NCBI GenBank assembly: GCA_025457915.1
Contig: JALOTL010000003.1
Location: forward strand, 124,001-188,000
Reading direction: 5' to 3'
Length of the DNA: 64,000 bases
Source: Spirochaetota bacterium
Lineage (GTDB): Bacteria; Spirochaetota; UBA4802; UBA5550
A model generated the notes under the pieces. The model saw only the letters and a list, made by a program, of their open reading frames with translations, was not told the DNA's origin and searched no databases. Positions 3,460 to 60,781 of the stretch are shown here, piece by piece; position 1 is the first letter of the stretch; every line of letters starts with the position of its first letter. The position numbers and the translations under genes are program-made.

Positions 3460-4218
3460 ATGTTAGCAGAATATTTTAAAAATTTTGAAAAGAAGATTCT
3501 TAAGACGACGAAATCCGCCAAGGCTGAACCGGTGAAAAAAGCCGCCGGCAAGACAAGGGATACTGCAAAAATAAAACCGGCCAAACAGTCCTCCTCTTCG
3601 ACGATAGATTTGAATGCCTTGAAGGAACAGGTCAACAGCATAGTTCCTTCATACCTGATTGTGGATTCCATCAGGCCCATAGACAGTTCCGGTTTTTCTC
3701 CGGAGGGCGCTGATCTGGTGGCCTTCAAGGGCTACTGCAGGGACATCATGAAGCTTATGGGCGGGTATGTGCCGTGCGAGCTTGTCTATGGAACATTTCA
3801 CATAGTCGGAGAGCTTGACAGGAATACGCTTCACGAGGTTTTGAACAGGATAATTTCAGTCAAGAAGCTTAATATGTTCGCCCAGGAAGATACAGGGGAT
3901 GAAAAGAAGCACATTCCTTCCTTTATAATCGCTACAGGAATGTCATATACTTTCATGGAACTTAAAAACGACATCATTAATTACTACATGTCAAAGGGAA
4001 TTGATTATTCCCAGGAAATGGACCTGCTTGCGGTTCTCGGCAGGGGAATCATTGTTAAAAACTGGAGGGAAAAGAGAAATTTCATCGCCATTGAAAGCAA
4101 GAATGATACCTGCATGTGGTTCTGCATATTAATGAATGAGTACCTGGATATTGACGAAAAAAGCTCGATGGATCTCAGGAAATACATAAAAAATGACACG
4201 GTTTACAAGGAATACTGA
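3460..4218 (+). CDS. Conserved-type hypothetical protein with basic N-terminal tail
   Basis: I do not recognise this 252-residue protein with certainty. Residues 1-45 are Lys/Ala-rich and probably disordered ('KTTKSAKAEPVKKAAGK'). A compact domain covers roughly 50-225. Its centre ('EGADLVAFKGY' to 'GYVPCELVYGTFHIVGELD') loosely recalls the DUF6602-type nuclease-like fold, in which a conserved aspartate is followed by a Val-Tyr-x-x-x-E-x-K strand. If that relation is real, the ExK pair is missing ('FHIVGELD') and catalysis is unlikely. There is no signal peptide or membrane segment, so it should be cytoplasmic. The start is supported by GAGGAG 6 nt upstream of ATG. A possible promoter (TTTACT, 16 nt, TATTAT at 3372-3377) precedes it. 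It opens the same-strand run that includes CfpA. Confidence 0.6.
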   Translation: MLAEYFKNFEKKILKTTKSAKAEPVKKAAGKTRDTAKIKPAKQSSSSTIDLNALKEQVNSIVPSYLIVDSIRPIDSSGFSPEGADLVAFKGYCRDIMKLMGGYVPCELVYGTFHIVGELDRNTLHEVLNRIISVKKLNMFAQEDTGDEKKHIPSFIIATGMSYTFMELKNDIINYYMSKGIDYSQEMDLLAVLGRGIIVKNWREKRNFIAIESKNDTCMWFCILMNEYLDIDEKSSMDLRKYIKNDTVYKEY

Positions 4219-4230
4219 CGGTTATTTGAC

Positions 4231-4293
4231 GTATTAATATTTTAATAAACACAGTATTAATATGGTTGACATAATATTGTCTGTTGATATAAT
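4231..4293 (+). promoter_or_regulatory. Consensus sigma-70 promoter with upstream tandem operator-like repeats
   Basis: TTGACA at 4266-4271 and TATAAT at 4288-4293, spaced 16 bp, both hexamers perfect. Immediately upstream the 10-mer GTATTAATAT occurs twice (4231-4240 and 4254-4263), 23 bp apart start to start, with the second copy ending 2 nt before the -35 box. This arrangement suggests regulator binding, which is inferred. It drives the VWA gene whose start is at 4386, leaving a leader of about 85 nt. Confidence 0.75.
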
Positions 4294-4385
4294 TTTTTAC
4301 AAATAAAGTCCGGTTAATTTCACTTTGGACTGCCGGGCAGAAAAAGAAATTCCCTTTTAAAAAAGCAATAACGAGGAGAAATATT

Positions 4386-5513
4386 TTGAAAGCAAAACCT
4401 TTTAAGGCCGTATTGTTTTTTATCACGTTCTGTCTGATGATAAATATAGGGTTCAGTGAAAGGCTTTTTGCCGCCAGGAGCAAGAACGTGATCCTTGTGC
4501 TGGATACATCTCTGTCGATGATCGGTACCGGAGGAGCGGGATATAAAAGCGGCAATATTTTTGAAAGGGTCAAGGAAAGCATTCAGAAATATATCGAACA
4601 GCTGGATGACGGCGACAAGGTCACTTTCATGACCTTTGACGAGAAGGTGAAAACATTCCCCACGGTGCTGGTCGACGACGCCAACGACAAGGACATCATA
4701 AAAAAATATATTTCCATGACTCAGGCAACCGGGAAATGGACAAACACCTTTCTCATGATGGAGAAAGTCCTCCTCAAGGCCAATGATCTGGAAAAAGAGA
4801 AGGGCGGAGACAAAAGGCAGACCGTAATAGTAATAATGACGGATGCTCTTGATGATCCCCCTCCTGCAAGCAAAAGCAGGCTGGACATCAAAAAAGTATT
4901 GAATCCGTATGGCAAGAAAGACTGGTGGGTATACCTGGTAAGCTTCAATGAAATAAAGAATGATCCGAGACTTTCTGCGGTCAGGAAACAGTTCGAAAAA
5001 GACCTTGCGCTTTTAACTAAAGAAGGAAAAGTGATAGACGCGAGCGGAAGCCCGGAAAAGATTATCGGTAAGCAGATACCGGAAGACATTAAAAAGCTTG
5101 AATCCCAGAGAGGTTTTCTGTCGCCATGGCTGATCGTTGTAATTGTGGTACTTGCCCTGCTTCTCGTGCTGTTTTTGATAAAAAGAAATTCACAGCTCAT
5201 CCTGAAGGGCGTCATTGAATACTGGAACAACGAGGTGCTCAGCCCGTATATCGAGCATTTTGATATCAGCAAGAGGCACCTGAAGAATTTAACCGTGGGT
5301 AAGGGCGCAGGCTGTCAGCTCAATATTAGGGATTATCAACTAAAGAGCAGGTTCGGATTAAAGGCCATCAGGGAGAAGGGCGCAATAAGGGCTTCTTTAC
5401 TGGCAGATCAGGGTGTGAATATAGAATTTGTCAACAGGGAGGCTGGTGAGGTTCTTCAGGATGGAGATATCTTTAAAGTGGGGAATTACACTTTTAAGTA
5501 CCTTGATAAATAA
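4386..5513 (+). CDS. VWA-domain membrane protein with degenerate FHA-like C-terminus
   Basis: A 375-residue protein. Residues 1-30 form a signal sequence ending near 'LFAA'. A von Willebrand factor A domain follows with an intact MIDAS start 'DTSLS' (Asp40), the threonine region around 'WTNTFLMME', and 'MTDALDDPP'. A transmembrane helix spans about 244-264 ('LIVVIVVLALLLVLFLI'). The C-terminal 110 residues ('LTVGKGAGCQLNI', 'LQDGDIFKVGNYTF') resemble a forkhead-associated fold in spacing but lack its conserved histidine. Topology would place the VWA domain in the periplasm and the FHA-like part in the cytoplasm. The start is TTG at 4386, chosen because GAGGAG lies 7 nt upstream and no ATG gives the signal peptide. 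It lies between a perfect promoter and the cfpA promoter. A metal-dependent protein-protein adhesion role is inferred from the family. Confidence 0.8.
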   Translation: MKAKPFKAVLFFITFCLMINIGFSERLFAARSKNVILVLDTSLSMIGTGGAGYKSGNIFERVKESIQKYIEQLDDGDKVTFMTFDEKVKTFPTVLVDDANDKDIIKKYISMTQATGKWTNTFLMMEKVLLKANDLEKEKGGDKRQTVIVIMTDALDDPPPASKSRLDIKKVLNPYGKKDWWVYLVSFNEIKNDPRLSAVRKQFEKDLALLTKEGKVIDASGSPEKIIGKQIPEDIKKLESQRGFLSPWLIVVIVVLALLLVLFLIKRNSQLILKGVIEYWNNEVLSPYIEHFDISKRHLKNLTVGKGAGCQLNIRDYQLKSRFGLKAIREKGAIRASLLADQGVNIEFVNREAGEVLQDGDIFKVGNYTFKYLDK

Positions 5514-5606: not shown

Positions 5607-5698
5607 ATCTCAATTAATTATTTTTTCACATCAATTTATTATTCTTTTTTGAAGAAAATTCATAAATAAAGCGTTTTTGAAAAAAGGAGGATTTGTCA

Positions 5699-7648
5699 AT
5701 GTCACTTGCTCAATTTCCAAAAAGCCCCAACAAGTTTCACCCGACCATTCCGAGTGCGGTTGGTTCGAGGGAGTCCCTTGTACAAGAGGGTCGAGATAAA
5801 ATCGCCGAACAGAAACTGATCGTCGATGAGGTCACTGATAAAGTCATCAATCAGGTTATGACAAAAGTTCCCGATGATATCGCTTCTAAATTCGATATCA
5901 TGGGCGGTTTGAAAGAAAAGCTATACAATTATGTAAACCAGACTTACGTCAACATGTTCAACAGGTATACCGTGACGATGGAAGACGAGTTCATGAAAAA
6001 GATCAGGGACTTCGTCGACAGGGAAGAGGTAAAAGGACTCGCACGTTATACGCCGAAAGAAATAATTGAGCTCCTCGACAAGATCGGCGGCGCAGACAAA
6101 TTCCATACCGGTGAGATAGAGAAATCGATAGTCAACATGTTCGGACACCTCCAGGGACATATCCAGCGCGGAGTCAATGACCTTGAGACCGAGACGAACT
6201 CGATATTGAGGCAGAAGACAGACGTCGGAGCTTTTGTCCGCGGTCAGAACGCGTATGCGATACTCAAGTGCGTCTTCAAAGACAATGAATTGAGACCCAA
6301 ATATGTCTATGATGTCAAGCTCTCGATAAACGTTCTCGAAAGCGAGCTCATCAGCCCGATGTATCATTACCAGGTGACGATCGAGTCTCTCTTGAAAGAC
6401 GCCATCCAGAAGCATATACAGGATCTGATAGATCACCAGATCCAGACTCTTAATGATGAGCTTCTCGACCAGGGCAAGCAGGAGCTTAGCGGAAGCGAAA
6501 AGATGTTCGAAAAGATCAAGAGGATAGAAAATTTCACTGATGACGATAAAGAGGATGAGAAATCGAGAAGATATACCATCCTGGCCAAGAAATTTCTTGA
6601 TAAGATAGAAGGACTCAGGGCCGAGATTGATGTAGAAGAGATAGATCCGCTGAACATCAGGGAGAATATCAAATACATCATCGACCAGGAAAACATAAGG
6701 AACAGGGGATACAATACGGCGATCAACTCCATCACCTCGATCCTTGATACCAGTAAGCTCGGCTACCAGGTCTGCAACAACATGAAGAATGCCAGACTCT
6801 GCCATATCAGGGAGTATGAGGAAACGGATTCCACTATTCTTCCGGATGAAAGATATGCAATGAAGCTGGCCTTCTATGATCAGAACCAGCTCAGGGAGAT
6901 GAAGAAGGAATACGACAAGCAAATGGAAGCCTTCACATCCGAGATAAAAATGGCATGGGACGTAACTCACGCCCATTATGAATCAAAGAAGAGATTCAGG
7001 TCTCTCAAGGATTTCGACGACCTCGCAAACAGACTTATGAGCAAGCAGTGGAAGAGGGCCAAGAAGGACAGGGAAGACGATCCCGACATGCCTCTCTGGA
7101 GCGAAGTCGGTGAAATGTATAACGAAAATTCATTCGTCGAGAAGAACAACAGGACTTACGAGGACAGGATTGCCAACCTTGAAAGCAAGCTGAGATTCCT
7201 TACTGATCTTCTTCAGAAGATGCACGGGTTCCAGAACCCGGTCGAGAGGGTCATTCTTGACGAGAGATTGAAATTCATGGAAAAGAGATTCAACGAGTTC
7301 ACATACCTCGTGAATCCTCACCACATACAGCCGGGTCTGATTCTTGATATAGATATCACGACCATAAAGAGAAAGCAGTATATGCTCAAGGGCATGGCAA
7401 ACGTTCTGAACGAGTTTCTGTTCGGCGTGTCCAAGGGCTTTGCTGATGCTGCCTTCGCTTCTTATGCACGAAGAAGGTCCACTCAGAGAGATGACATTGA
7501 ACAGTCCTTCGAGGCTGAAGAAAGCCCGCAGGAAAACCTTTTTGCCCAAGCTTACAAAACTTCCGATGGAGGGGAAATCAAGGGTTCAGTGAATCTTTCT
7601 CCGAGCAGACCGGCCGCGAAGAAAAGGGGCGGGCTGAAAGAGCTTTAA
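5699..7648 (+). CDS. cfpA: Cytoplasmic filament protein CfpA
   Basis: A 649-residue, highly charged, mostly helical protein with no signal peptide or membrane segment. Blocks such as 'LVQEGRDKIAEQKL', 'DEVTDKVINQVMTKVP', 'GEIEKSIVNMFGHLQGHIQRG' and 'ILRQKTDVGAFVRGQNAYAI' match my recollection of the Treponema cytoplasmic filament protein CfpA, which is about 680 residues and forms ribbon-like bundles under the inner membrane along the cell, affecting cell division and morphology. I recall the family only from spirochaetes, so this is the best taxonomic marker in the window. The ATG at 5699 is preferred to the TTG at 5693 of the ORF track because GGAGG (5686-5690) is 8 nt from ATG but only 2 nt from TTG. 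It is flanked by a strong promoter and a strong terminator, indicating a monocistronic, highly expressed gene. Confidence 0.93.
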   Translation: MSLAQFPKSPNKFHPTIPSAVGSRESLVQEGRDKIAEQKLIVDEVTDKVINQVMTKVPDDIASKFDIMGGLKEKLYNYVNQTYVNMFNRYTVTMEDEFMKKIRDFVDREEVKGLARYTPKEIIELLDKIGGADKFHTGEIEKSIVNMFGHLQGHIQRGVNDLETETNSILRQKTDVGAFVRGQNAYAILKCVFKDNELRPKYVYDVKLSINVLESELISPMYHYQVTIESLLKDAIQKHIQDLIDHQIQTLNDELLDQGKQELSGSEKMFEKIKRIENFTDDDKEDEKSRRYTILAKKFLDKIEGLRAEIDVEEIDPLNIRENIKYIIDQENIRNRGYNTAINSITSILDTSKLGYQVCNNMKNARLCHIREYEETDSTILPDERYAMKLAFYDQNQLREMKKEYDKQMEAFTSEIKMAWDVTHAHYESKKRFRSLKDFDDLANRLMSKQWKRAKKDREDDPDMPLWSEVGEMYNENSFVEKNNRTYEDRIANLESKLRFLTDLLQKMHGFQNPVERVILDERLKFMEKRFNEFTYLVNPHHIQPGLILDIDITTIKRKQYMLKGMANVLNEFLFGVSKGFADAAFASYARRRSTQRDDIEQSFEAEESPQENLFAQAYKTSDGGEIKGSVNLSPSRPAAKKRGGLKEL

Positions 7649-7670
7649 AAAAACAATGATTAAAATAAAA

Positions 7671-7695
7671 AGGCTGCCTTTCGGCAGCCTTTTTT
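7671..7695 (+). terminator. Rho-independent terminator of cfpA
   Basis: A perfect 8-bp stem AGGCTGCC / GGCAGCCT with a TTTC tetraloop is followed by a run of six T, 23 nt after the cfpA stop. Confidence 0.93.
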
Positions 7696-7803: not shown

Positions 7804-8754
7804 ATGGAAACCACCTACTATTCCCTCGCATCAAAGGGAAATTTCAACAAGGCGTTAAAGCATTTTTTCAAGGTAAACGACGTAGTCGATGATATTGATA
7901 ACGGACGAAACCTGGCGGATTCAATTAATGATGATATAGACAGCGGTGAAATCGCCAGTGACCAGATCCTTCCGATTGTCGGGGCAGTTATCCGGGACAA
8001 GTACGGATACAGCTATCATTCATACAGTCTTCCCCAGACGGTTTCGGATTTTTCAAAAATCACCGACGAGACATCCAAGTGGACGGCGCTGGATATTGTA
8101 ATCGTTTATTACAATCCGAGCGGTAAAACCTTCGTCGTCAATCCCAAGAATCCAGACCACTGGGAAATGGTCCGGGAGATCTTCCATGACCAGCTCGCGG
8201 TTATCTATGTCAAAAACCGCAAGGAGGAAGAAAATAAAAAGGTGGAGAAGCAGGCCATAACGGCGATAGAGGAAATGCTTTCCGGAAGGGACGTGTTTAC
8301 AAATAAGGATTTTATCGACAGCACTGTTGTACAGAGAAAACCGGCCCCCAAACCCGTTGCTGCACCGGTAGCCGCCGGTCCTGGACCGGCAAAGGTTGCT
8401 GCGGAACCGGTATCAAAGGTCAAGAAAAACTTCACGCCCAAATATGCCGTACAGGTATCCAACGAGCTGTTCCATAACGGAAATGTCGAGGCCTGGAAAA
8501 AGATCGTTGAAAGCTTTAAGACTAAATTCAAGGATTTGGACGTGTATATATTTTTCGAGGGGGAGCTTATTAACGATATCAATGCCCTCTTCAAGTGGGG
8601 AAAAGTCAAACATGGAGATTCAATTTTTTTCCAGGTGGCCGGCGAGGACATCAAGGGAGTATCCAAGCTTCAGAAATATCTTTTTGAAGGCGCCAGCCCA
8701 AGATTCGAACAGTTTTTGAAAATAGGCGTCGGCCAGGTTCTTAATCTTTTCTAA
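7804..8754 (+). CDS. Hypothetical protein, two globular parts joined by a Pro/Ala linker
   Basis: A 316-residue cytoplasmic-looking protein that I do not recognise. The N-terminal part (about 1-165) contains 'TALDIVIVYYNPSGKTFVVNPKNPDHW', and a helical charged segment follows. Residues about 177-205 are a Pro/Ala/Val-rich linker ('APKPVAAPVAAGPGPAK'). The C-terminal part (about 210-316) is a compact mixed domain ending 'IGVGQVLNLF'. There is no signal peptide or membrane segment. ATG 7804 is preferred to the upstream start in the track (7729, which overlaps the promoter) because AGGAG at 7793-7797 is 6 nt away. The next gene (PPDK-like) begins 22 nt after the stop, so the two are probably co-transcribed and may act together. 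Function is unknown. Confidence 0.7.
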   Translation: METTYYSLASKGNFNKALKHFFKVNDVVDDIDNGRNLADSINDDIDSGEIASDQILPIVGAVIRDKYGYSYHSYSLPQTVSDFSKITDETSKWTALDIVIVYYNPSGKTFVVNPKNPDHWEMVREIFHDQLAVIYVKNRKEEENKKVEKQAITAIEEMLSGRDVFTNKDFIDSTVVQRKPAPKPVAAPVAAGPGPAKVAAEPVSKVKKNFTPKYAVQVSNELFHNGNVEAWKKIVESFKTKFKDLDVYIFFEGELINDINALFKWGKVKHGDSIFFQVAGEDIKGVSKLQKYLFEGASPRFEQFLKIGVGQVLNLF

Positions 8755-8776: not shown

Positions 8777-11383
8777 ATGGAAAATGTCATATACTTCAAT
8801 AAAAATTTAAAAAGCGTCGATAGCAAGCTTCATGCCAAACTCGGCATACGCGGCAGGAGGGCGGTTGACCTTGCAATCATGGGTCTTCCGATAGCCCCGG
8901 GTTTTATCATAGATTCGGATATGACCAAAACCCTTCCCCAGATTAACATCAAGGAGATGCTTAAGGACAACATCATCCAGATGGAAAAGGACATGAAGAA
9001 AAAATTCGGCGATTCAACCAAGCCCCTTACCGTAAAGGTTGTTTTGAGTTCCGATCTTAATGTCCCGCATTTCCCATCGATCCACAATGTAGGTATGAAC
9101 AGCACTACGGTGGAAGCGTTCGGTAAGAGCACCGGCCTCGACTTTGCATACGGCGAATATCTGTTTCTTCTCAGGAATCTTGCGAAGCACATTTATACCG
9201 TAGATCCGAAAGATCTCAAGGAGATCGAAAAACCGCTGGGTAAAAAAGCAACCAGGGAAAGCGTAAAGCAGGTCGTAGAGTCTTATAAGAAATATTACGG
9301 TGAGAAATTCAGCGAGGACGTTTATGACCAGCTTGGTCTTATAATAAAGGGGTCAGCGGCCAAATACTGCGATTCCGACATAGATGTTGATAATTCGCTG
9401 TCAATAATGGTCCAGGCCATGGTTTACGGGAATTTCGGAAGCAATTCCTACGCGGGCAATTATTATACCAGAAACATCATAACAGGCAACTCGGACATCC
9501 AGGGCGATTTTTTGCAGAATGAATTTGATTTTGGCAGGGGCAAGGTAAAGGAAATCAAGTCGATTGATAAAAAATTCTATGCCAATTTCACCGATGTCGC
9601 GCGGAAGATTGAGGATAATTTCAAGGAAATCCGCAACATCAAATTTACTATTGAAGAGGGTGATATCTGGCTTGTCGAACAAAAGGAAGCCGACGATAAA
9701 TCCACCCAGTCTCAGATAAAGGCCCTCCTTGACCTGGCGAAAAGAAAGGTTGTGGCAGACACCTATCTGATAGAATCAATAAAACCAAACCAGCTGAATG
9801 AGCTCCTGCACCCGGTGATAGATCCCAGGACCATCAAGGCCATGAAGAGCATCAAGGGAGGCATTGCAGGATCAACTGGTGCGGCCATAGGAAGAGTGTT
9901 TTTCTCAACGCCAAAACTGCTCGAGGAGCACAAGAAGGCGATCATGAAGGGCGCTGATACCAACTTAATACTTGTTATGCCGGCGTCGTATGCCGAAGAC
10001 GTCAAGGCGATTGAAGTCGCCCAGGGAGTTATAACTTCAGAAGGCGGTTTTTCATCGCATGCTCCCGTTGTCGCGAGAAGCCTTGGTAAGGTCGCCATGG
10101 TGCAGCCGGATATGAAGATACGGGGCAATTCATTCACCCTTTCCGGTAAGACTGTAAAGGAAGGCGACTACGTATCGATCAACGTGCCGTATTATGATGA
10201 TCCTACCATCTATATCGGAAGGGTCGGACTGATTGAGCCTGATTTTAAAAACAACGGCCTTCTTGAATTTCTTGATATAGTAGAGAAACATATCAGCGAC
10301 TTCAATGTAAGGGCAAATGCCGACCAGGGAAGGGACGCCGTTGTTGCCAAGGATTTCAAGGCAATCGGGATCGGGCTCTGCAGAACGGAGCACATGTTTT
10401 TCAACGAAAAAAGGATTATGAAATTCAGGGAGATGATTATCGCGGAAAGCGAAGCCGAGAGAAGAAAAGCCCTTGATATCCTTTTACCGATGCAGAGATC
10501 TGACTTTTATGATCTTTTCAAGATCATGAAGGGTTATCCGGTGACGATTAGGCTGCTGGACGCGCCGTTGCACGAGTTTTTACCCAGGTCGGAAGCCAGC
10601 ATGAATGAATTCATAAAGTATATGAATACCAGGAAAAAAGGGATAAAGGCCGCTGAAATCAAGACAAGGTGCGAGGAGCTCGGAGAGATGAACCCGATGC
10701 TCGGGCACAGGGGCTGCCGCGTGGCTGTGACCTATCCGGAAATATATGAGATGCAGACAAGGGCGATTTTTGAAGCGGCCTGCATGCTCAAGAAGGAAGG
10801 GATCAAGGTCACTCCGGAAATAATGATCCCGATAGTAATGAGCGAACAGGAAATTAAATTCATTAAAATCGGTAAAAAGATTGAAGGTAAAGAGGTAAAG
10901 GGCATAAGGGATATCATGAAAGAGGTGGTTGACGAATACGGGATCGAGGATCTGGATTACAAGGTCGGGACGATGATCGAGCTGCCTGCTGCGGCCCTGG
11001 GGGCTGGCAATATCGCCCAGTATGCTGAATTTTTCAGCTTCGGTACAAACGACCTGACGCAGACAACCTACGGCCTGTCGCGGGACGATTCAAACTCCTT
11101 CTTCCCGAGCTATTCGCTTTTCGACCTTATGAAGCTTAATCCTTTCAAATATCTTGGGGAAGAGGTAAAGGAACTGATCGGTGTAGCGGCACTCAGAGGC
11201 AAGCTTTCCAGGCCGGACATCAAAATGGGACTTTGCGGTGAACATGGAGCGAATCCCGACAACATTCAGTTCTGCATGGATACAGGTCTCAACTATGTAT
11301 CCTGTTCTCCATATTCAATTCCTCTGGCTAAACTCGCTATAGCCCAGATCAATATTAAGAAAAAGGCCGAGGAAAAAAAATAA
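8777..11383 (+). CDS. Pyruvate phosphate dikinase-like protein with a degenerate ATP-grasp half
   Basis: At 868 residues it is the length of pyruvate, phosphate dikinase and collinear with it. The C-terminal PEP/pyruvate half is intact: the phosphohistidine 'EGGFSSHAPVVARSLG' (His428), 'GLCRTEHMFF', 'RLLDAPLHEFLP', 'GHRGCRVAV', 'MIELPAAALG', 'FSFGTNDLTQTTYG' and 'LCGEHGANP' (catalytic Cys820). The N-terminal ATP-grasp half is not. By alignment to the Clostridium symbiosum enzyme from memory, Lys22 becomes Arg25, Arg92 becomes Val89, Asp321 becomes Asn287, Glu323 becomes Lys289, Gln335 becomes Glu301 and Arg337 becomes Lys303. PPDK interconverts ATP + phosphate + pyruvate with AMP + PPi + PEP, and loss of the nucleotide site argues against that. 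It may be a PEP-dependent phospho-carrier or regulator. GGAG precedes the ATG by 7 nt. It follows the unknown gene at 7804 and ends at a strong terminator. Confidence 0.85.
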   Translation: MENVIYFNKNLKSVDSKLHAKLGIRGRRAVDLAIMGLPIAPGFIIDSDMTKTLPQINIKEMLKDNIIQMEKDMKKKFGDSTKPLTVKVVLSSDLNVPHFPSIHNVGMNSTTVEAFGKSTGLDFAYGEYLFLLRNLAKHIYTVDPKDLKEIEKPLGKKATRESVKQVVESYKKYYGEKFSEDVYDQLGLIIKGSAAKYCDSDIDVDNSLSIMVQAMVYGNFGSNSYAGNYYTRNIITGNSDIQGDFLQNEFDFGRGKVKEIKSIDKKFYANFTDVARKIEDNFKEIRNIKFTIEEGDIWLVEQKEADDKSTQSQIKALLDLAKRKVVADTYLIESIKPNQLNELLHPVIDPRTIKAMKSIKGGIAGSTGAAIGRVFFSTPKLLEEHKKAIMKGADTNLILVMPASYAEDVKAIEVAQGVITSEGGFSSHAPVVARSLGKVAMVQPDMKIRGNSFTLSGKTVKEGDYVSINVPYYDDPTIYIGRVGLIEPDFKNNGLLEFLDIVEKHISDFNVRANADQGRDAVVAKDFKAIGIGLCRTEHMFFNEKRIMKFREMIIAESEAERRKALDILLPMQRSDFYDLFKIMKGYPVTIRLLDAPLHEFLPRSEASMNEFIKYMNTRKKGIKAAEIKTRCEELGEMNPMLGHRGCRVAVTYPEIYEMQTRAIFEAACMLKKEGIKVTPEIMIPIVMSEQEIKFIKIGKKIEGKEVKGIRDIMKEVVDEYGIEDLDYKVGTMIELPAAALGAGNIAQYAEFFSFGTNDLTQTTYGLSRDDSNSFFPSYSLFDLMKLNPFKYLGEEVKELIGVAALRGKLSRPDIKMGLCGEHGANPDNIQFCMDTGLNYVSCSPYSIPLAKLAIAQINIKKKAEEKK

Positions 11384-41934: not shown

Positions 41935-44900
41935 ATGCCGCGAATATTCGATAACTTCAATATTTTTCTAATACCTCCCGTACTGTTTTTAATTACCGGG
42001 GTTTCTCTTGGCGTTTTTTCGCTTATAAAGGGAAAACGTCACTTCGAAAATATTCTATTCGCCCTTATATGCTTCTGGTGGTCGCTGCTTATGCCGGTGT
42101 TCATGTCCCACCATATCTTCAAGGGAAACATACCGCTCATCCTGACAATTGAACGCAGCGTTCACTTCGTGTATGTCTATCTGCCGGCGATCGTTATTTT
42201 GTTTGTACATTCAATGGTTAATAAAAAGAACAGGGGCATTGAGATAGCGGCATTTGTCCTTAGTTTTATTTTTTCTCTGTTCACATTTACTGATTATTAT
42301 TTTAACGTAATGCTGGAATACCGATGGGGATATATAGCAAGGGCCGGCATAGCGTTTGATCTGTTCGGCCTGTACAGTTTTTGCTGTATAATTTATTGTA
42401 TAATACTGATCATGAAAAAAATGAAAACGGGTATTGATGACTATACCCGACTGAAAATAAAATATATCATGATTGCCATTATATCGATGGCCGTTTTGAC
42501 TACAGGCAACATACCGGCCATGAATGGCATCGACATTTATCCGCCGGGAAACTTCGCCTTTATATCCATGCTGTTCATGGCATGGGGGATATACCGGCAT
42601 GATGTTATCAAGATGAACCTTTACTCGAAGCGTCGTATTGTCGGTGCCATTGTGAGGATGTTTGTCACAGCCGGACTAATTGCCGCAATTTTGGTATGCT
42701 GGTGGGCATTAGCTAATTACAGTTTGAGTCATATTTTCACTAGAATAATACCTTATGGAATCCCTCCGCTTCTGTCGTTTATATGCTGTGTCTTTTTGTC
42801 TTATCTCTCACTGCGGTTAGGTGAAAACCGAAAAGATTCAATAATATTCAGCATTCTGATGCTTGTATATGCGCTTTTAAGTATTGATATATATCTCAAC
42901 AGCATCATAAATGATCCATATATCGGTTTGCGGGTAAGCAGATTCAGTCATATTTTTGTCGTTTTTATTCCAGCTCTGGGGATGCATCTCATGAGGAGCG
43001 TCACCGACCGTCAATCCGAAACCCGTCTCCTTTACGGCAATTACCTGATATGTTTTATATTATTGCTGTTTTCACAATCAGATTATTATCTTCAGGGAAT
43101 GTATTTATACTCATGGGGGCAGTTTGCCAGAAAAGCAATTCTGTTTGACCTGATGAGCGTTCTTGCGACCCTGACTCTTGCATATAACATTTTGATCCTG
43201 TTGGCTGCCTATAGGCAGAGTAATATCAGTTTTTTACGAAGCCGGTATCTTTTTCTTCTTATAGGTTCAGCAAGCACTGCGGTCATGTCTCTTGGGAATG
43301 TCCCTGCAATGAACGGGTATGACATTTATCCGCTGGGAAATTTTATTTTTATTCCGGCAGCAATTTTTGCTGTGGCGCTTTTCAGACATAATATCACTGA
43401 GATAATGCGATTTTCCGGGATGTTTGTGTATTACGGCGTGATATCGGCGGCAGTATTTGCCGCTGTATGGGTTCTGGCCCTGAATCATTCAGACGATTTT
43501 TTGCCGGTATACACCGGCATCTCATTTTTCAGTATCCTCGTGTTTAATTTTTTTCTCCGTCGGCTGCGTGATTATGTTTCCGGCAGGCATGCCGATAAAT
43601 TAAAAATCGCATTCGAAAACCTGAGCGACAAACTATCCAGAGCCCGGAGTTTCGATGAGATAGAAGCATGCATTTCGCGCTCTTTTTTTACTGATCTTGA
43701 CTGCGTACAATGTGCGGTGTTGATATATAAAGAAAACCTGAATAAATATACCGGGAAAAAACTCTGGAATAATCAGATTGAATTCATGCATGGATTGCCT
43801 GTTATGGAAAATTCACAGTCGATAAATATCGACCCGGGCCATCCTTTGCTCGACTGTATTCGGATAAAACATTCATATATGAAGCAGGAGGAAATTGAAT
43901 TCTGCATCCTCAACAATGAGCTGGCTGTTGATTATAATGATCCGCTGCGGCAGTTTGAGATAATTCTGCCTGTTTTTTTTGAAAACCATTTATCAGCTCT
44001 TATTCTGCTTGGCGTTAAAATCGACGCTTCAGTATTTTCCAGTAATGAAACCGGATTTCTCTATCAGCTCGGGATCAATCTCGGTCCGCATATTGAAAAT
44101 GTCATAATACTCCAGCAGCTTGAAGAAACACTGGAGGAGCGGACAAAGAAACTTCGTGATTCTGAAGAGAAATACAGGAACTTGATAGAAAATGCGAATG
44201 ATATCATATACAAGGCAGACTGGCGCGGTTATTTTATCTATTCGAATCCTGCTTTTCATAAAAAGTTTGAATATACGAGCGAGGAAATACGCCATCTGCA
44301 TTATCTTGACCTCATACCGCCTGATAACCGGGATGATGAATTTGCTTTTTACAGCAGTCAGTTGAAAAATAAAACCGACCAATCCCATCGCGAGCTTCCT
44401 GTTCTCGCAAAATCCGGAAGGATTCTATGGATCGTGCAGGATGTGAAGTCTATCAAGGATGAGAACGGGCGTATTGTTGAATTCGACTGCATCGTTCATG
44501 ATATTACGGACAGAAAAGCTGCTGAAGATGCCCTGCGCGAGAGCGAGGAGCGCTTTCGACTTGTTGTGGAGAACGTCAACGATGCGGTTTTTATCTGCAA
44601 ATTTGACGGACATTTGAAATACATGAGCCCGACTATTGTGCGGATTACAGGCTACTCCTCGGAAGAAATGCTCAATGCACACTATCTCCATTTTATCCAT
44701 CCTGATTGCCGGAAAGGCGAGTTTGATTTGTACAAAAAACAGGTACAGGAGAATGTTGAGGTCAGCGTGCATGAATACCCTTTTATTACAAAGCATGGAG
44801 GAATTATTTGGGTAGGTCAGACTGTGCGCATGGTGAAGAACGATACTGGCGAGATAGAATTTTTCGGAGTTATAAGGGATATTTCAGACAGAAAAGCCGC

Positions 44901-47286
44901 TGAGAACGCGCTGCGTGAGAGCGAAATGCGCTATCAGCAGCTGATGGAAAACGTCAGCGATTGTGTTTTCATCTGTAGACTGGATGGACATTTCAAATAT
45001 ATCAACCCGGCCGTTACCCGATTGACCGGGATTCCTCCAAATGATCTGATCGGTACACACTATCTTTCTATCGTGCATCCGGACTATCGTGAGAAGCAGA
45101 TGAAATTTTATCAGAAGCAGGTGAGTGATAATATTGAAACAACATATTGTGAATTCCAGATACTGATAAAAAACAATGAAACCAGATGGGTGGGGCAAAC
45201 CGTCCGTATGATCAGAAACAACGAGGGAGAAATCGAATTTTACGGCATTGCCCTTGACATTTCCGCTCTCAAAAAAGCAGAGGAGGCCAGGCGCGATCTC
45301 GAGGAGGCAAAAACCAATTTTTTTGCCAATATCTCACACGAAATACGCACTCCGCTCACCCTCATGCTGGGGCCTATCGAGTCCGTACTCCATGGAGATT
45401 ACGGTAAGGAGGTCGACAATGAATTTTTTAAGAACCTTCACCGGAATACTCTGAGCCTTCTTAAACTTGTGAATAATCTTCTTGATTTTTCTAAAATTGA
45501 AGCTGGAAAAATGATTTTGCGGGTACAGGAGGGTGATATAGTTTACTTCGCCCGTCATTATCTTGAAAGTATACGGCTGGCCGGGAAATCAAAGAATATT
45601 AATTTGTTTTTTAATTCCTCTTCCGGTTCTATCATAGTCTGCTTTGATCCGGAAAGGCTGGACAAGGTCTTTATGAATCTTCTTTCAAACGCATTGAAAT
45701 TTACCGGTGAGGGGGGATCGATTTCGATCACACTTTCCGAGGATGAAGACAACTGCCTGATCAATGTGTCCGATAATGGAGATGGAATTTCAGAGAAAGA
45801 TATTGTCAACATATTCGACCGTTTCTGCCAGTCGGATAGGACTTCACCCAGAAAGCATGAGGGTACCGGCATCGGACTCGCACTGGCAAAGGAGCTTGTG
45901 GAACTGCACGGAGGCTCCATCTCGGTCGAGAGCAGACATATCCAAAAATATCCCGATGATCACGGTTCAACCTTCACGGTGATTCTTCCGAAAGGAATAA
46001 AACATTTTGAGAAGAGGGCAAATGTTGAATTTGTTGAAAAGAGGAATCTTGACGATTGGGTGAAGGATTATCGGCAAATCGGACTTCGCGAGATAGAGCC
46101 ATTAAAAATTAGTGATTCAATTTTAGACTGTCATGCAGAAGGCGGGGAAACGCAGTTCTCTGGCATAAAAAAGACCATACTGGTTGTTGATGACAATGAG
46201 GATATGCAGAATTTTATGAAAATACTGCTCCAGAAACATTATAAGGTGATACTCGCCGAAAACGGCGAGGAGGGAATTAACCGTGCAAGGATACTGAAAC
46301 CGGACCTGATTGTTACGGACGTCATGATGCCGGTGATGAACGGCTTTGAGATGACTTCAATCATCAAAAATGATAATGAGCTTAAGATAATCCCGATAAT
46401 CATGCTCACTGCCGATACGGAATTTATGAACAAAGTGGCAGGTCTTGAATACGGTGCCGACGATTATTTACATAAACCTTTTAACTCGATGGAGCTTTTA
46501 ACGCGGATCGCTTCCCTGCTGAAAAATTATGAATTTCAGCAGATCATCAGCCGTCGCAACGCTGATATAGAAAGTGAACTTGAAGTGGCGCGTCTGCTAC
46601 AGCAGCGGCTGTTTCCCTCATCAATGCCGGAGATTTCCGGATATCATGAACACGTTATATATATCCCCATGGATAAAATCGGAGGCGATTTTTACGATAT
46701 TGAAAACCGTGACGGATTACTTAATCTTTTCATTGCTGATGTTTCCGGGCATGGTCTCCCCGGAGCGTTTCTGGCGACAGTAACGAAAATCGCCCTCGAA
46801 AATATATCTGTCCGGACAAGCTCAAACAAGGTGCTTTATCTTCTCAATAATGTTATCCTTCGTCACACTGTGCAGAGTAATTATGTAACAGCTTTTTTTG
46901 CTACAATCGACATCAATACGAATCTCATGCGGTATGCCAGTGCGGGTCATGTTTCGCCTATTCTGTATCGTAAAAAAAACGATGAATTCATTGAACTTAA
47001 AACTAAAGGAAAACCGCTCGGATGGTTCAAAGATGTTCAGATAGATGAAAAAACAATTCAGCTCGATTCAGGCGACCGCATAATTCTCTATACCGACGGT
47101 TTAACTGAGTGTATGGATTATTCCGGGGAGCTATTCGGTGAGGAACGCCTTCGGAAAATCATCAAAGATTATTCATGCAAACCAGCTGTTGAGTTTTCAA
47201 AAGAGCTGATGAAGGAACTGGAAATATTTAATGGCAGCAATTCCTACGAAGATGACATCACCATGGTTGTACTCGATGTTCTGTAA
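41935..47286 (+). CDS. Giant sensor kinase-receiver-SpoIIE/PP2C phosphatase fusion
   Basis: A single 1783-residue protein. Order: first membrane block (about 1-270); second membrane block (about 275-545) homologous to the first ('GNIPAMNGIDIYPPGNFAFI' near 190, 'GNVPAMNGYDIYPLGNFIFI' near 452); GAF-like region (about 550-730); three PAS domains (about 740-862, 868-985, 993-1113); DHp with His1135 in 'ANISHEIRTPLTLMLGP'; HATPase_c with 'NLLSNALKF', 'SDNGDGIS' and 'GTGIGLALAKELVELHGG'; receiver with phospho-Asp1462 in 'VTDVMMPVMNG'; and a C-terminal RsbU/SpoIIE phosphatase with metal ligands in 'IGGDFYD' (Asp1585), 'ADVSGHGLPGAF' (Asp1602) and 'YEDDITMVV'. All catalytic residues look intact. 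Likely logic: a membrane signal drives His-Asp phosphotransfer that switches the PP2C domain, which dephosphorylates an anti-sigma-factor antagonist. No such partner is encoded in the island. Arginine codons are mainly CGN, unlike host genes. Confidence 0.92.
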   Translation: MPRIFDNFNIFLIPPVLFLITGVSLGVFSLIKGKRHFENILFALICFWWSLLMPVFMSHHIFKGNIPLILTIERSVHFVYVYLPAIVILFVHSMVNKKNRGIEIAAFVLSFIFSLFTFTDYYFNVMLEYRWGYIARAGIAFDLFGLYSFCCIIYCIILIMKKMKTGIDDYTRLKIKYIMIAIISMAVLTTGNIPAMNGIDIYPPGNFAFISMLFMAWGIYRHDVIKMNLYSKRRIVGAIVRMFVTAGLIAAILVCWWALANYSLSHIFTRIIPYGIPPLLSFICCVFLSYLSLRLGENRKDSIIFSILMLVYALLSIDIYLNSIINDPYIGLRVSRFSHIFVVFIPALGMHLMRSVTDRQSETRLLYGNYLICFILLLFSQSDYYLQGMYLYSWGQFARKAILFDLMSVLATLTLAYNILILLAAYRQSNISFLRSRYLFLLIGSASTAVMSLGNVPAMNGYDIYPLGNFIFIPAAIFAVALFRHNITEIMRFSGMFVYYGVISAAVFAAVWVLALNHSDDFLPVYTGISFFSILVFNFFLRRLRDYVSGRHADKLKIAFENLSDKLSRARSFDEIEACISRSFFTDLDCVQCAVLIYKENLNKYTGKKLWNNQIEFMHGLPVMENSQSINIDPGHPLLDCIRIKHSYMKQEEIEFCILNNELAVDYNDPLRQFEIILPVFFENHLSALILLGVKIDASVFSSNETGFLYQLGINLGPHIENVIILQQLEETLEERTKKLRDSEEKYRNLIENANDIIYKADWRGYFIYSNPAFHKKFEYTSEEIRHLHYLDLIPPDNRDDEFAFYSSQLKNKTDQSHRELPVLAKSGRILWIVQDVKSIKDENGRIVEFDCIVHDITDRKAAEDALRESEERFRLVVENVNDAVFICKFDGHLKYMSPTIVRITGYSSEEMLNAHYLHFIHPDCRKGEFDLYKKQVQENVEVSVHEYPFITKHGGIIWVGQTVRMVKNDTGEIEFFGVIRDISDRKAAENALRESEMRYQQLMENVSDCVFICRLDGHFKYINPAVTRLTGIPPNDLIGTHYLSIVHPDYREKQMKFYQKQVSDNIETTYCEFQILIKNNETRWVGQTVRMIRNNEGEIEFYGIALDISALKKAEEARRDLEEAKTNFFANISHEIRTPLTLMLGPIESVLHGDYGKEVDNEFFKNLHRNTLSLLKLVNNLLDFSKIEAGKMILRVQEGDIVYFARHYLESIRLAGKSKNINLFFNSSSGSIIVCFDPERLDKVFMNLLSNALKFTGEGGSISITLSEDEDNCLINVSDNGDGISEKDIVNIFDRFCQSDRTSPRKHEGTGIGLALAKELVELHGGSISVESRHIQKYPDDHGSTFTVILPKGIKHFEKRANVEFVEKRNLDDWVKDYRQIGLREIEPLKISDSILDCHAEGGETQFSGIKKTILVVDDNEDMQNFMKILLQKHYKVILAENGEEGINRARILKPDLIVTDVMMPVMNGFEMTSIIKNDNELKIIPIIMLTADTEFMNKVAGLEYGADDYLHKPFNSMELLTRIASLLKNYEFQQIISRRNADIESELEVARLLQQRLFPSSMPEISGYHEHVIYIPMDKIGGDFYDIENRDGLLNLFIADVSGHGLPGAFLATVTKIALENISVRTSSNKVLYLLNNVILRHTVQSNYVTAFFATIDINTNLMRYASAGHVSPILYRKKNDEFIELKTKGKPLGWFKDVQIDEKTIQLDSGDRIILYTDGLTECMDYSGELFGEERLRKIIKDYSCKPAVEFSKELMKELEIFNGSNSYEDDITMVVLDVL

Positions 47287-58897: not shown

Positions 58898-60781
58898 TTA
58901 TCTGATTTTATAAAGCTCCACATCGAAATAACCAAAATGAAAGGTTCGGACGAGATTGTCCATGATAAAAAGATCCCTGTATCTTTCGGTTATTTTCCTC
59001 TCGAACACTACGTTCCTGCAAACCGCTATGTAAAGGGGTATGTTTTTTTCCATTATTTTTCCGTGACTTCCGCCGGAATGGGTATTGATGCTTACGGGTT
59101 CATTCCTGATGAGTTTGCCGACCAGCCTGTGGTTGTATTCTCCCTGCCACTGGACGATCAGCGGCTTCAGTCTGTTTTCAATCGTAAGCCCGGATGACCA
59201 GCTCCCGGCAATTATGCTGTTTGATGGGAGCGTGGAGCCGATATTTTTTGATGCCTCGAAGAGATTGTTGTCGTGGAAAATAAACCATTTCCCGTATTGA
59301 AACATCTGAATGACCACAATTATTATTAATACCATTTTGTTAAAGTCCGGCCTCTTGATGAATGAAAAGACCCTTTTCCTGCTTAAAAAGATCACGACCA
59401 GCACGGCCGCCACCGTTAAAACCATGGGCGCGAGAACCGGCAATGCACCGGAGATTCCTCCCGTTTCAAAATATGGGTATATTTTTTTAATCAGGCTGTT
59501 CCTCGTCCATGCGGGAATGACCATAACGTAGATCACCACTGCCGAATAAAGAAAGGCCGTGATCCACAGGAACGCGGCAAGGATGTTGTACGGAGGATTT
59601 TTTTTCCCGAAAAGAAAAGACTGCAGCTTCCCGTCCTCAAGGGTGGAAACGGCCCTGGATGCGATTATCATCATTGGAGGAAAAACGAGCAGATAATACC
59701 TTGAAGGGTGGTAGTACATCAGTGAAAGGAATATGAATCCGAAAACCAGCCATGAGGCCATGATCAGATCGATGAGCCGGCCTTCGGATCTCGTTATGAA
59801 TTCATGGAGGATGTAAATAGAGAAAAAGGCGGCAAGGAAAAAAGTAACCGGATGAAGGAAAATGAATTCATTGTATAAATTTTTTCCCAGCATTATATGC
59901 AGGGGATCGAACATCCAGAATGGTATGAACTCGATTACTGGCTTTCCGAAAACCGTGAATTCAAATAAAAATTTTGCCATGTACATCTTGAAGATGGTGA
60001 CATGCGCGAAAAGCAGATACATGGTCGTGATGCCGCTGAGGATCGATATCAGGACCGCGTTGGCGTACTTTTTCAAAATCACGGATTTGCCGCAGGCGTA
60101 TATTATCAGTGCCGGTATGACAGAAAGGAAAATTACCAGGAAGGATTTTTTTATGTTATAGCAGGCGATAAGGGCGGCCAATCCTCCGGCAAGGAAAATC
60201 GTCCTGGATAAGATGCCGGGAAAGACGCCATAACCTTTCAAGCGCGGTGTCTTTTTCCATGGCATGAAGACCTCCGCGAAGCAGAACATTGCCAGGATGA
60301 CATAGAATATCAGATGGCTTTCATACAGGCCCAGGCGGTTGTACATCGTAAAATAAAAATTTGTTCCGGCCAGTAGAAGGCCTAGAGCAGCGGTTAAGTC
60401 ATCATAATTTCTTTTGAGGAAAACGAACAGAAGCAGCAAAGAAAAAACAGAATATATTATTGAAACCGATCTGATCGAGGCAAAACTCACCCCGAAGGTT
60501 TTGAATATCCAGAGAAAGGTGTAATTCGGGAGAGGGCCCCGTTCGAGCCAGTGGGCGTATTCGTCCTCGTCGGACCATCTCCAGTCGCCGTAAAGAGCCA
60601 TGTTCCTTGAGGCATACGTTTTGAATCCTTCATCGGTGTAGGTGGCTGCGGATATCGATATGTCCTGCGGACCGTCGGCGTTTATGAACGCGATCCTCAT
60701 TGCCGAAAGGACTATGAACGCGAAAACGACGATTAAGCAATAGTATTTTTTCGAAGAAAGGGATTTCAGGTATTCGAACAT
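58898..60781 (-). CDS. GT-C type membrane glycosyltransferase (PMT/ArnT-like)
   Basis: A 627-residue protein with about 12 helices and a C-terminal soluble part. The first extracytoplasmic loop carries the acidic motif 'TYTDEGFKTYASRNMALYGDWRW', as in dolichyl/undecaprenyl-phosphate sugar transferases of the PMT_2/ArnT group. 'YHPSRYYLLVFPPMMI' is a typical later helix. It uses a lipid-linked sugar donor at the outer face of the inner membrane. It lies downstream of two GT4 enzymes and a flippase-like protein, so it probably finishes a surface glycan or glycolipid. Confidence 0.85.
   Translation of the reverse strand: MFEYLKSLSSKKYYCLIVVFAFIVLSAMRIAFINADGPQDISISAATYTDEGFKTYASRNMALYGDWRWSDEDEYAHWLERGPLPNYTFLWIFKTFGVSFASIRSVSIIYSVFSLLLLFVFLKRNYDDLTAALGLLLAGTNFYFTMYNRLGLYESHLIFYVILAMFCFAEVFMPWKKTPRLKGYGVFPGILSRTIFLAGGLAALIACYNIKKSFLVIFLSVIPALIIYACGKSVILKKYANAVLISILSGITTMYLLFAHVTIFKMYMAKFLFEFTVFGKPVIEFIPFWMFDPLHIMLGKNLYNEFIFLHPVTFFLAAFFSIYILHEFITRSEGRLIDLIMASWLVFGFIFLSLMYYHPSRYYLLVFPPMMIIASRAVSTLEDGKLQSFLFGKKNPPYNILAAFLWITAFLYSAVVIYVMVIPAWTRNSLIKKIYPYFETGGISGALPVLAPMVLTVAAVLVVIFLSRKRVFSFIKRPDFNKMVLIIIVVIQMFQYGKWFIFHDNNLFEASKNIGSTLPSNSIIAGSWSSGLTIENRLKPLIVQWQGEYNHRLVGKLIRNEPVSINTHSGGSHGKIMEKNIPLYIAVCRNVVFERKITERYRDLFIMDNLVRTFHFGYFDVELYKIR

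Follow-up and report, generated by a model that had tools for sequence, protein, structure and literature searches.

The enzyme closest to the protein described here is PPDK (EC 2.7.9.1), represented by the C. symbiosum structures 1dik and 1kbl, in which K22, R92, D321, E323, Q335 and R337 are the catalytic residues of the ATP-grasp domain, and H455, R561, R617, E745, N768, D769 and C831 make up the phosphohistidine and the PEP/pyruvate site. A homologous PEP-dependent histidine domain and PEP barrel are found in Enzyme I (EI) of the PTS, the partner of HPr. One regulatory descendant of PPDK is VadK (Rv1127c) of M. tuberculosis, which is devoid of the pyruvate/PEP domain and autophosphorylates (PMC13400623). 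Rifampin phosphotransferase and related two-part dikinases (PMC4844700) share the architecture of an ATP-grasp domain and a swivelling histidine domain, one half of which was swapped for a new function; the ATP half is kept there and the other half varies. In T. pallidum, a PPDK-related protein, TP0746, has been treated as the enzyme converting PEP to pyruvate (PMC10013896, PMC8525777). The cytoplasmic filaments of treponemes are made of CfpA, and in T. denticola a cfpA mutant filaments and has condensed chromosomes (PMC3398590).

The window (the whole stretch of DNA analysed, 64,000 nucleotides) carries on its forward strand a PPDK-like gene (8777..11383) encoding 868 aa, with a dismantled ATP-grasp N domain, an intact phosphohistidine domain and an intact PEP/pyruvate barrel. 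The protein has the domain order of PPDK, and its residues 18-861 align nearly end to end with 1dik/1kbl (HMMER, E ~1e-158). In this pairwise alignment all six ATP-grasp positions are replaced (K22 by R25, R92 by V89, D321 by N287, E323 by K289, Q335 by E301 and R337 by K303), exactly as a first-pass annotation of the sequence had assigned them; they lie in a remodelled N domain of residues 1-340 (8777..9796, forward strand). The other half of the molecule, which the same annotation described as retained, is indeed complete: H455 corresponds to His428 (codon 10058..10060, forward strand), R561 to R536, R617 to R592, E745 to E735, N768 to N758, D769 to D759, and the catalytic cysteine C831 to Cys820 (codon 11234..11236, forward strand). 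A misalignment of the ATP site was ruled out, as pairwise HMMER and multiple MAFFT alignments concur, both placing replaced rather than intact residues in the nucleotide site. Among Pfam models, PF02896 (PEP-utilising barrel) and PF00391 (phosphohistidine domain) matched the protein, while its score with PPDK_N (PF01326), 26.4, was narrowly under the gathering cut-off of 27; with NCBIfam TIGR01828 it scored 687.9, under the curated cut-off of 843.45. Unlike that of Enzyme I, the N domain is derived from the ATP-grasp domain of PPDK, and the HPr-binding domain of the EI type (PF05524) gave no match in the Pfam scan. The protein may work in the manner of Enzyme I, by analogy, while not being a member of that family.

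Relatives were taken from 393 Spirochaetota genomes and from named genome contigs, and 109 sequences with the altered ATP site (the dead type, a few of them fragments) were aligned by MAFFT with 19 canonical PPDKs. In the dead type, R stands at position 22 in 102/102 sequences and V or I at position 92 in 102/102; R or K replaces E323 in 100/104, and at position 335 there is E or D in 102 of 104. Position 337 shows the weakest of the six changes, since R is still present in 60 dead-type relatives. Both metal-binding acidic positions are gone in most members, E323 being turned into R or K. H455, R561, R617, E745, N768, D769 and C831 are invariant wherever readable, which includes His428 and Cys820 of the window's protein. 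Among the 95 N-domain residues that are invariant in canonical PPDKs, 48 are lost and 19 kept in the dead type; for the 97 such residues of the PEP domain the corresponding numbers are 7 and 81. The N domain has also gained conserved basic residues (R25, K87, R286 and K/R289), and in the tree a single fully supported branch parts the dead type from the canonical one. The substitutions are thus fixed in a spirochaete clade, and what the first-pass annotation saw in one protein, an ATP half selectively lost beside a retained PEP half, holds across the phylum.

Comparisons of close relatives gave dN/dS values of about 0.01-0.1 for every estimable domain including the N domain, with synonymous sites often saturated, indicating that the altered N domain is maintained and not decaying. 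A few dead-type members are truncated or frameshifted (G287 and some MAGs), as would be expected of a decaying pseudogene; against this reading, and against an alignment artefact, stand the open reading frames maintained phylum-wide, dN/dS values well under 1 for all domains and the agreement of the alignments, so that either is extremely improbable. A single-genome oddity was likewise ruled out by the clade-wide fixation and the selection pattern. Judging from these residues, the protein has very probably lost PPDK function, and PEP-dependent phosphorylation of His428 appears probable, if slightly less secure. One lineage has gone further: in G212 (L124 5597-7357) a PPDK-like ORF with a 587-residue frame is devoid of the whole N domain and keeps H455, R561, R617, E745, N768, D769 and C831. 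It lies directly downstream of an intact gene for P341, the protein described below, and cfpA is intact elsewhere in the genome. In this lineage the ORF has dispensed with the ATP-derived domain, and not with the PEP/histidine part or P341.

The genome of the window also contains a canonical ppdK (G000:C26:107903-110599) with all site residues intact, which the first-pass annotation had proposed looking for, as well as a pyruvate kinase. A canonical PPDK is also kept by most genomes with a dead-type gene, and pyruvate kinase was present in 11 of the 12 genomes checked.

The PPDK-like gene is preceded by two genes on the same strand. The first, cfpA (5693..7648, start codon uncertain), encodes the cytoplasmic filament protein (NF040882, 887.8 bits, cut-off 500). 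The second encodes P341 (7804..8754), a protein of 316 aa counted from the ATG at 7804, which belongs to a TP0747-type family and has two domains, the C-terminal one HPr-like by prediction. Only 22 bp separate the stop codon of the P341 gene from the start of the PPDK-like gene, and a terminator-like 12-bp hairpin (7667..7694, consensus scan only) lies between cfpA and the P341 gene; the latter two genes, P341 and PPDK-like, therefore probably form one operon. A promoter-like site, TTGAAA-16-TATTAT, was found upstream of the P341 gene (7729..7756, forward strand) by a consensus scan only, and the regional frequency of such sites is not above chance.

Among the 393 genomes, a dead-type PPDK gene was found in 133, cfpA (NF040882) in 137 and P341 in 132; the complete set occurs in 127 and no member of it in 252, all counts being uncorrected for phylogeny. 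Of the 14 partial cases, most come from incomplete bins or from the ends of contigs; G117 and G303 do not. Within each of five families (f24, f43, f48, f50 and f56) some genera have the set and others lack it, a pattern suggesting that the genes were lost together more than once. In G303 (L198 4871-6292) cfpA is damaged and scores below the cut-off, while P341 and the PPDK-like gene are absent; judging from such a case, the three genes seem to decay together. In 95 of the 133 genomes cfpA is located 1.1-2.2 kb upstream of the dead-type gene on the same strand, and the loci with enough upstream sequence have P341 upstream in 48/48 and cfpA in 45/48 cases. P341 usually lies directly upstream of the PPDK-like gene, although G125 has P341 beside cfpA and the PPDK-like gene elsewhere, and in G059 the three genes are all present on three contigs. 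The connection to CfpA, first noticed from the gene order in the window, thus extends across the phylum. There is solid support both for the loss of PPDK activity and for the association of the three genes, and a role of the PPDK-like protein and P341 together with CfpA, as judged from gene association only, is rather likely.

Conservation of the other neighbours in the window was not found outside close relatives. The VWA gene, the ORF at 3460, pgk and tatC were considered as members of the module and rejected, since among 26 loci that do not come from close relatives each was found at one or at none. The VWA-domain protein and the upstream ORF of no known family precede cfpA (3460-5513) and are conserved in close relatives only. 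Elsewhere, the window encodes a hybrid signalling protein of 1783 aa (41935-47286) with several PAS domains, a histidine kinase, a receiver and a C-terminal SpoIIE phosphatase domain, and, on the reverse strand, a 627-aa ORF without a Pfam match (58898-60781).

P341 had no convincing match in the Pfam scan, including PF00381 (HPr), and no solved relative in a PDB profile search; hhalign and HMM scores, compared with controls, lean towards HPr and are not significant. The last 110 residues of the protein are very highly conserved, with a mean column identity of 72% and the invariant motifs FHNGNVEAWK and LFKWGKVK. In the full-length AlphaFold model (pLDDT 89.6 overall) the C-terminal part (8422..8751, forward strand) is predicted to have the order strand-helix-strand-strand-helix-strand-helix, which is that of HPr, and when modelled alone it reached a pLDDT of 93 and a pTM of 0.88. 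In a Foldseek search of the PDB with this domain, HPr or Crh took the first 17 places and 32 of the first 35; the probability reached 0.99, the best E was 0.025, and target TM-scores lay at about 0.5-0.6. The phosphohistidine of HPr is His15, directly before the first helix; His224 of P341 (codon 8473..8475, forward strand), invariant in 78 sequences, has the equivalent place and is the proposed phosphoacceptor. Arg17 of HPr is absent, HNGN replacing HARP. An HPr-like fold of the C-terminal domain thus has good, if not conclusive, support from the models, and P341 is not assigned to the HPr family here. Residues 1-206 (7804-8421) have a predicted order of strands and helices as in the HPr-like half, with no conserved histidine, and may possibly be its degenerate duplicate.

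The ATP site is gone while the residues for PEP and histidine chemistry are kept; therefore the phosphate from PEP must go elsewhere. P341 is the natural candidate acceptor because it is HPr-like by prediction, has an invariant histidine, is encoded beside the PPDK-like gene and is lost with it. The phosphorelay suggested in the first-pass annotation would thus acquire a concrete candidate acceptor, with a predicted HPr fold. We propose that PEP would occupy the intact barrel and phosphorylate His428, with pyruvate being released. As the ATP-grasp site is dismantled, AMP and PPi could not accept the phosphoryl group, which would pass to a protein, at His224 in the HPr-like domain of P341; the remodelled N domain might have a docking or regulatory part. 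PEP and pyruvate would set how far P341 is phosphorylated, and this state would then act on the CfpA filament, in its assembly, its anchoring or a role in division. The G212 variant, without an N domain but next to an intact P341, also speaks for this scheme. For this scheme as a whole, a PPDK-derived, EI-like PEP:protein phosphotransferase that phosphorylates P341 and reports the glycolytic state to the CfpA filament system, the chances appear about even, and the same holds for P341 as the phosphoacceptor. Phosphotransfer and the action on the filament are inferred; control of the filament by PEP and pyruvate is the likely output, judged from gene association only. The system resembles EI/HPr in its PEP-dependent histidine domain, its barrel and a partner whose predicted fold is that of HPr and whose histidine is invariant, but P341 is unrecognisable as HPr by sequence, and true EI and HPr coexist with it. 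Their presence in the genomes checked counts against P341 as the acceptor of this protein, and they could phosphorylate P341 instead. The non-significant sequence comparisons with HPr, the modest Foldseek E-values and TM-scores, the missing Arg17 and the missing PF05524 domain count against the scheme as well.

A less probable explanation, to which we would give roughly one chance in four, is that the protein senses PEP and pyruvate without phosphotransfer: ligand binding or transient phosphorylation of the histidine would shift its conformation and so control P341 and CfpA, any turnover being slow PEP hydrolysis. The basic residues gained in the N domain could bind an anionic ligand, P341 has no counterpart of Arg17, and the swivelling domain of PPDK-type proteins is known to move with the ligand state (PMC5371819). 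A mere sensor, however, would hardly need the full invariant catalytic set, including His428 and Cys820, and such a role gives no reason why a histidine should be invariant in an HPr-like fold. If phosphotransfer does occur, the acceptor might be another protein (ordinary HPr, CfpA or an as yet unnamed one), with P341 as a scaffold or regulator; true HPr was present in 22/22 spirochaete genomes checked, and the most constant partner in the set is CfpA, but adjacency and joint loss belong to P341 and not to HPr, which makes this variant unlikely.

The protein might also still be metabolic, as a PPDK whose donor site has been rebuilt to take PPi, polyphosphate or another nucleotide for the exchange of PEP and pyruvate. 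Its N-domain pocket has become more basic, TP0746 is the sole candidate for the PEP-to-pyruvate step of T. pallidum, and it is among the highly expressed genes of this organism, where it is listed under glycolysis (PMC8525777). The loss of the acidic metal-binding positions in most members, with E323 replaced by a basic residue, argues against this, as do the canonical PPDK kept by most of the genomes and the pyruvate kinase present in 11 of the 12 checked; the near-perfect tie to cfpA would remain unexplained, and T. pallidum could obtain pyruvate through PEP carboxykinase and oxaloacetate decarboxylase. We therefore regard this explanation as quite improbable, and the EI-like relay through P341 as the preferred one.

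In T. pallidum Nichols (G056) the dead-type protein is TP0746 (positions as in PMC10013896; length 901 aa as in PMC3373638), with R, V, E, R, E and K at the six ATP positions (K22, R92, D321, E323, Q335 and R337). The same three-gene set is present at TP0746-TP0748 (L115, 6672-12546), with cfpA as TP0748 and P341 adjacent. No PPDK_N match besides TP0746 was found in this genome (the best, with E of 0.01, being TP0746 itself), and pyruvate kinase was looked for and not found. The genome encodes a GTP-type PEP carboxykinase and the alpha subunit of oxaloacetate decarboxylase, and from these genes it is possible that the two enzymes provide the route from PEP to pyruvate. The loss of the ATP site makes it doubtful, as far as can be judged from its residues, that TP0746 yields ATP and pyruvate as the literature assumes. 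PPDK and phosphoenolpyruvate are unmentioned in the main text of one metabolic model of T. pallidum (PMC12097511), and pyruvate in that of another (PMC4606156). Our literature search, which was thin on subscription journals, found neither a paper naming TP0747 nor a published description of a spirochaete PPDK with a dead ATP site.

If the spirochaete protein was, as proposed, turned from a PPDK into a regulator that is phosphorylated on histidine, VadK and the EI/HPr pair are its nearest functional parallels. VadK is its mirror image, since the spirochaete protein keeps the PEP half and has lost the ATP half; this suggests that a regulator can arise from PPDK by loss of one half or the other. 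The dead-type PPDKs of spirochaetes, that of T. pallidum included, are probably PEP-powered signalling proteins and not the glycolytic enzymes as which they are annotated. In the syphilis spirochaete, whose protein is read as glycolytic in genome and transcriptome studies, this casts doubt on the enzyme to which the PEP-to-pyruvate step has been assigned. The spirochaete cytoplasmic filament, for its part, gains two near-obligate partner proteins. Taken to its full extent, which we consider somewhat short of an even chance, this would mean that spirochaetes evolved from PPDK another PEP phosphorelay besides the PTS and independent of it, whose HPr-like protein couples the glycolytic state to a cytoskeletal filament, and that the last glycolytic step of T. 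pallidum has been misassigned.
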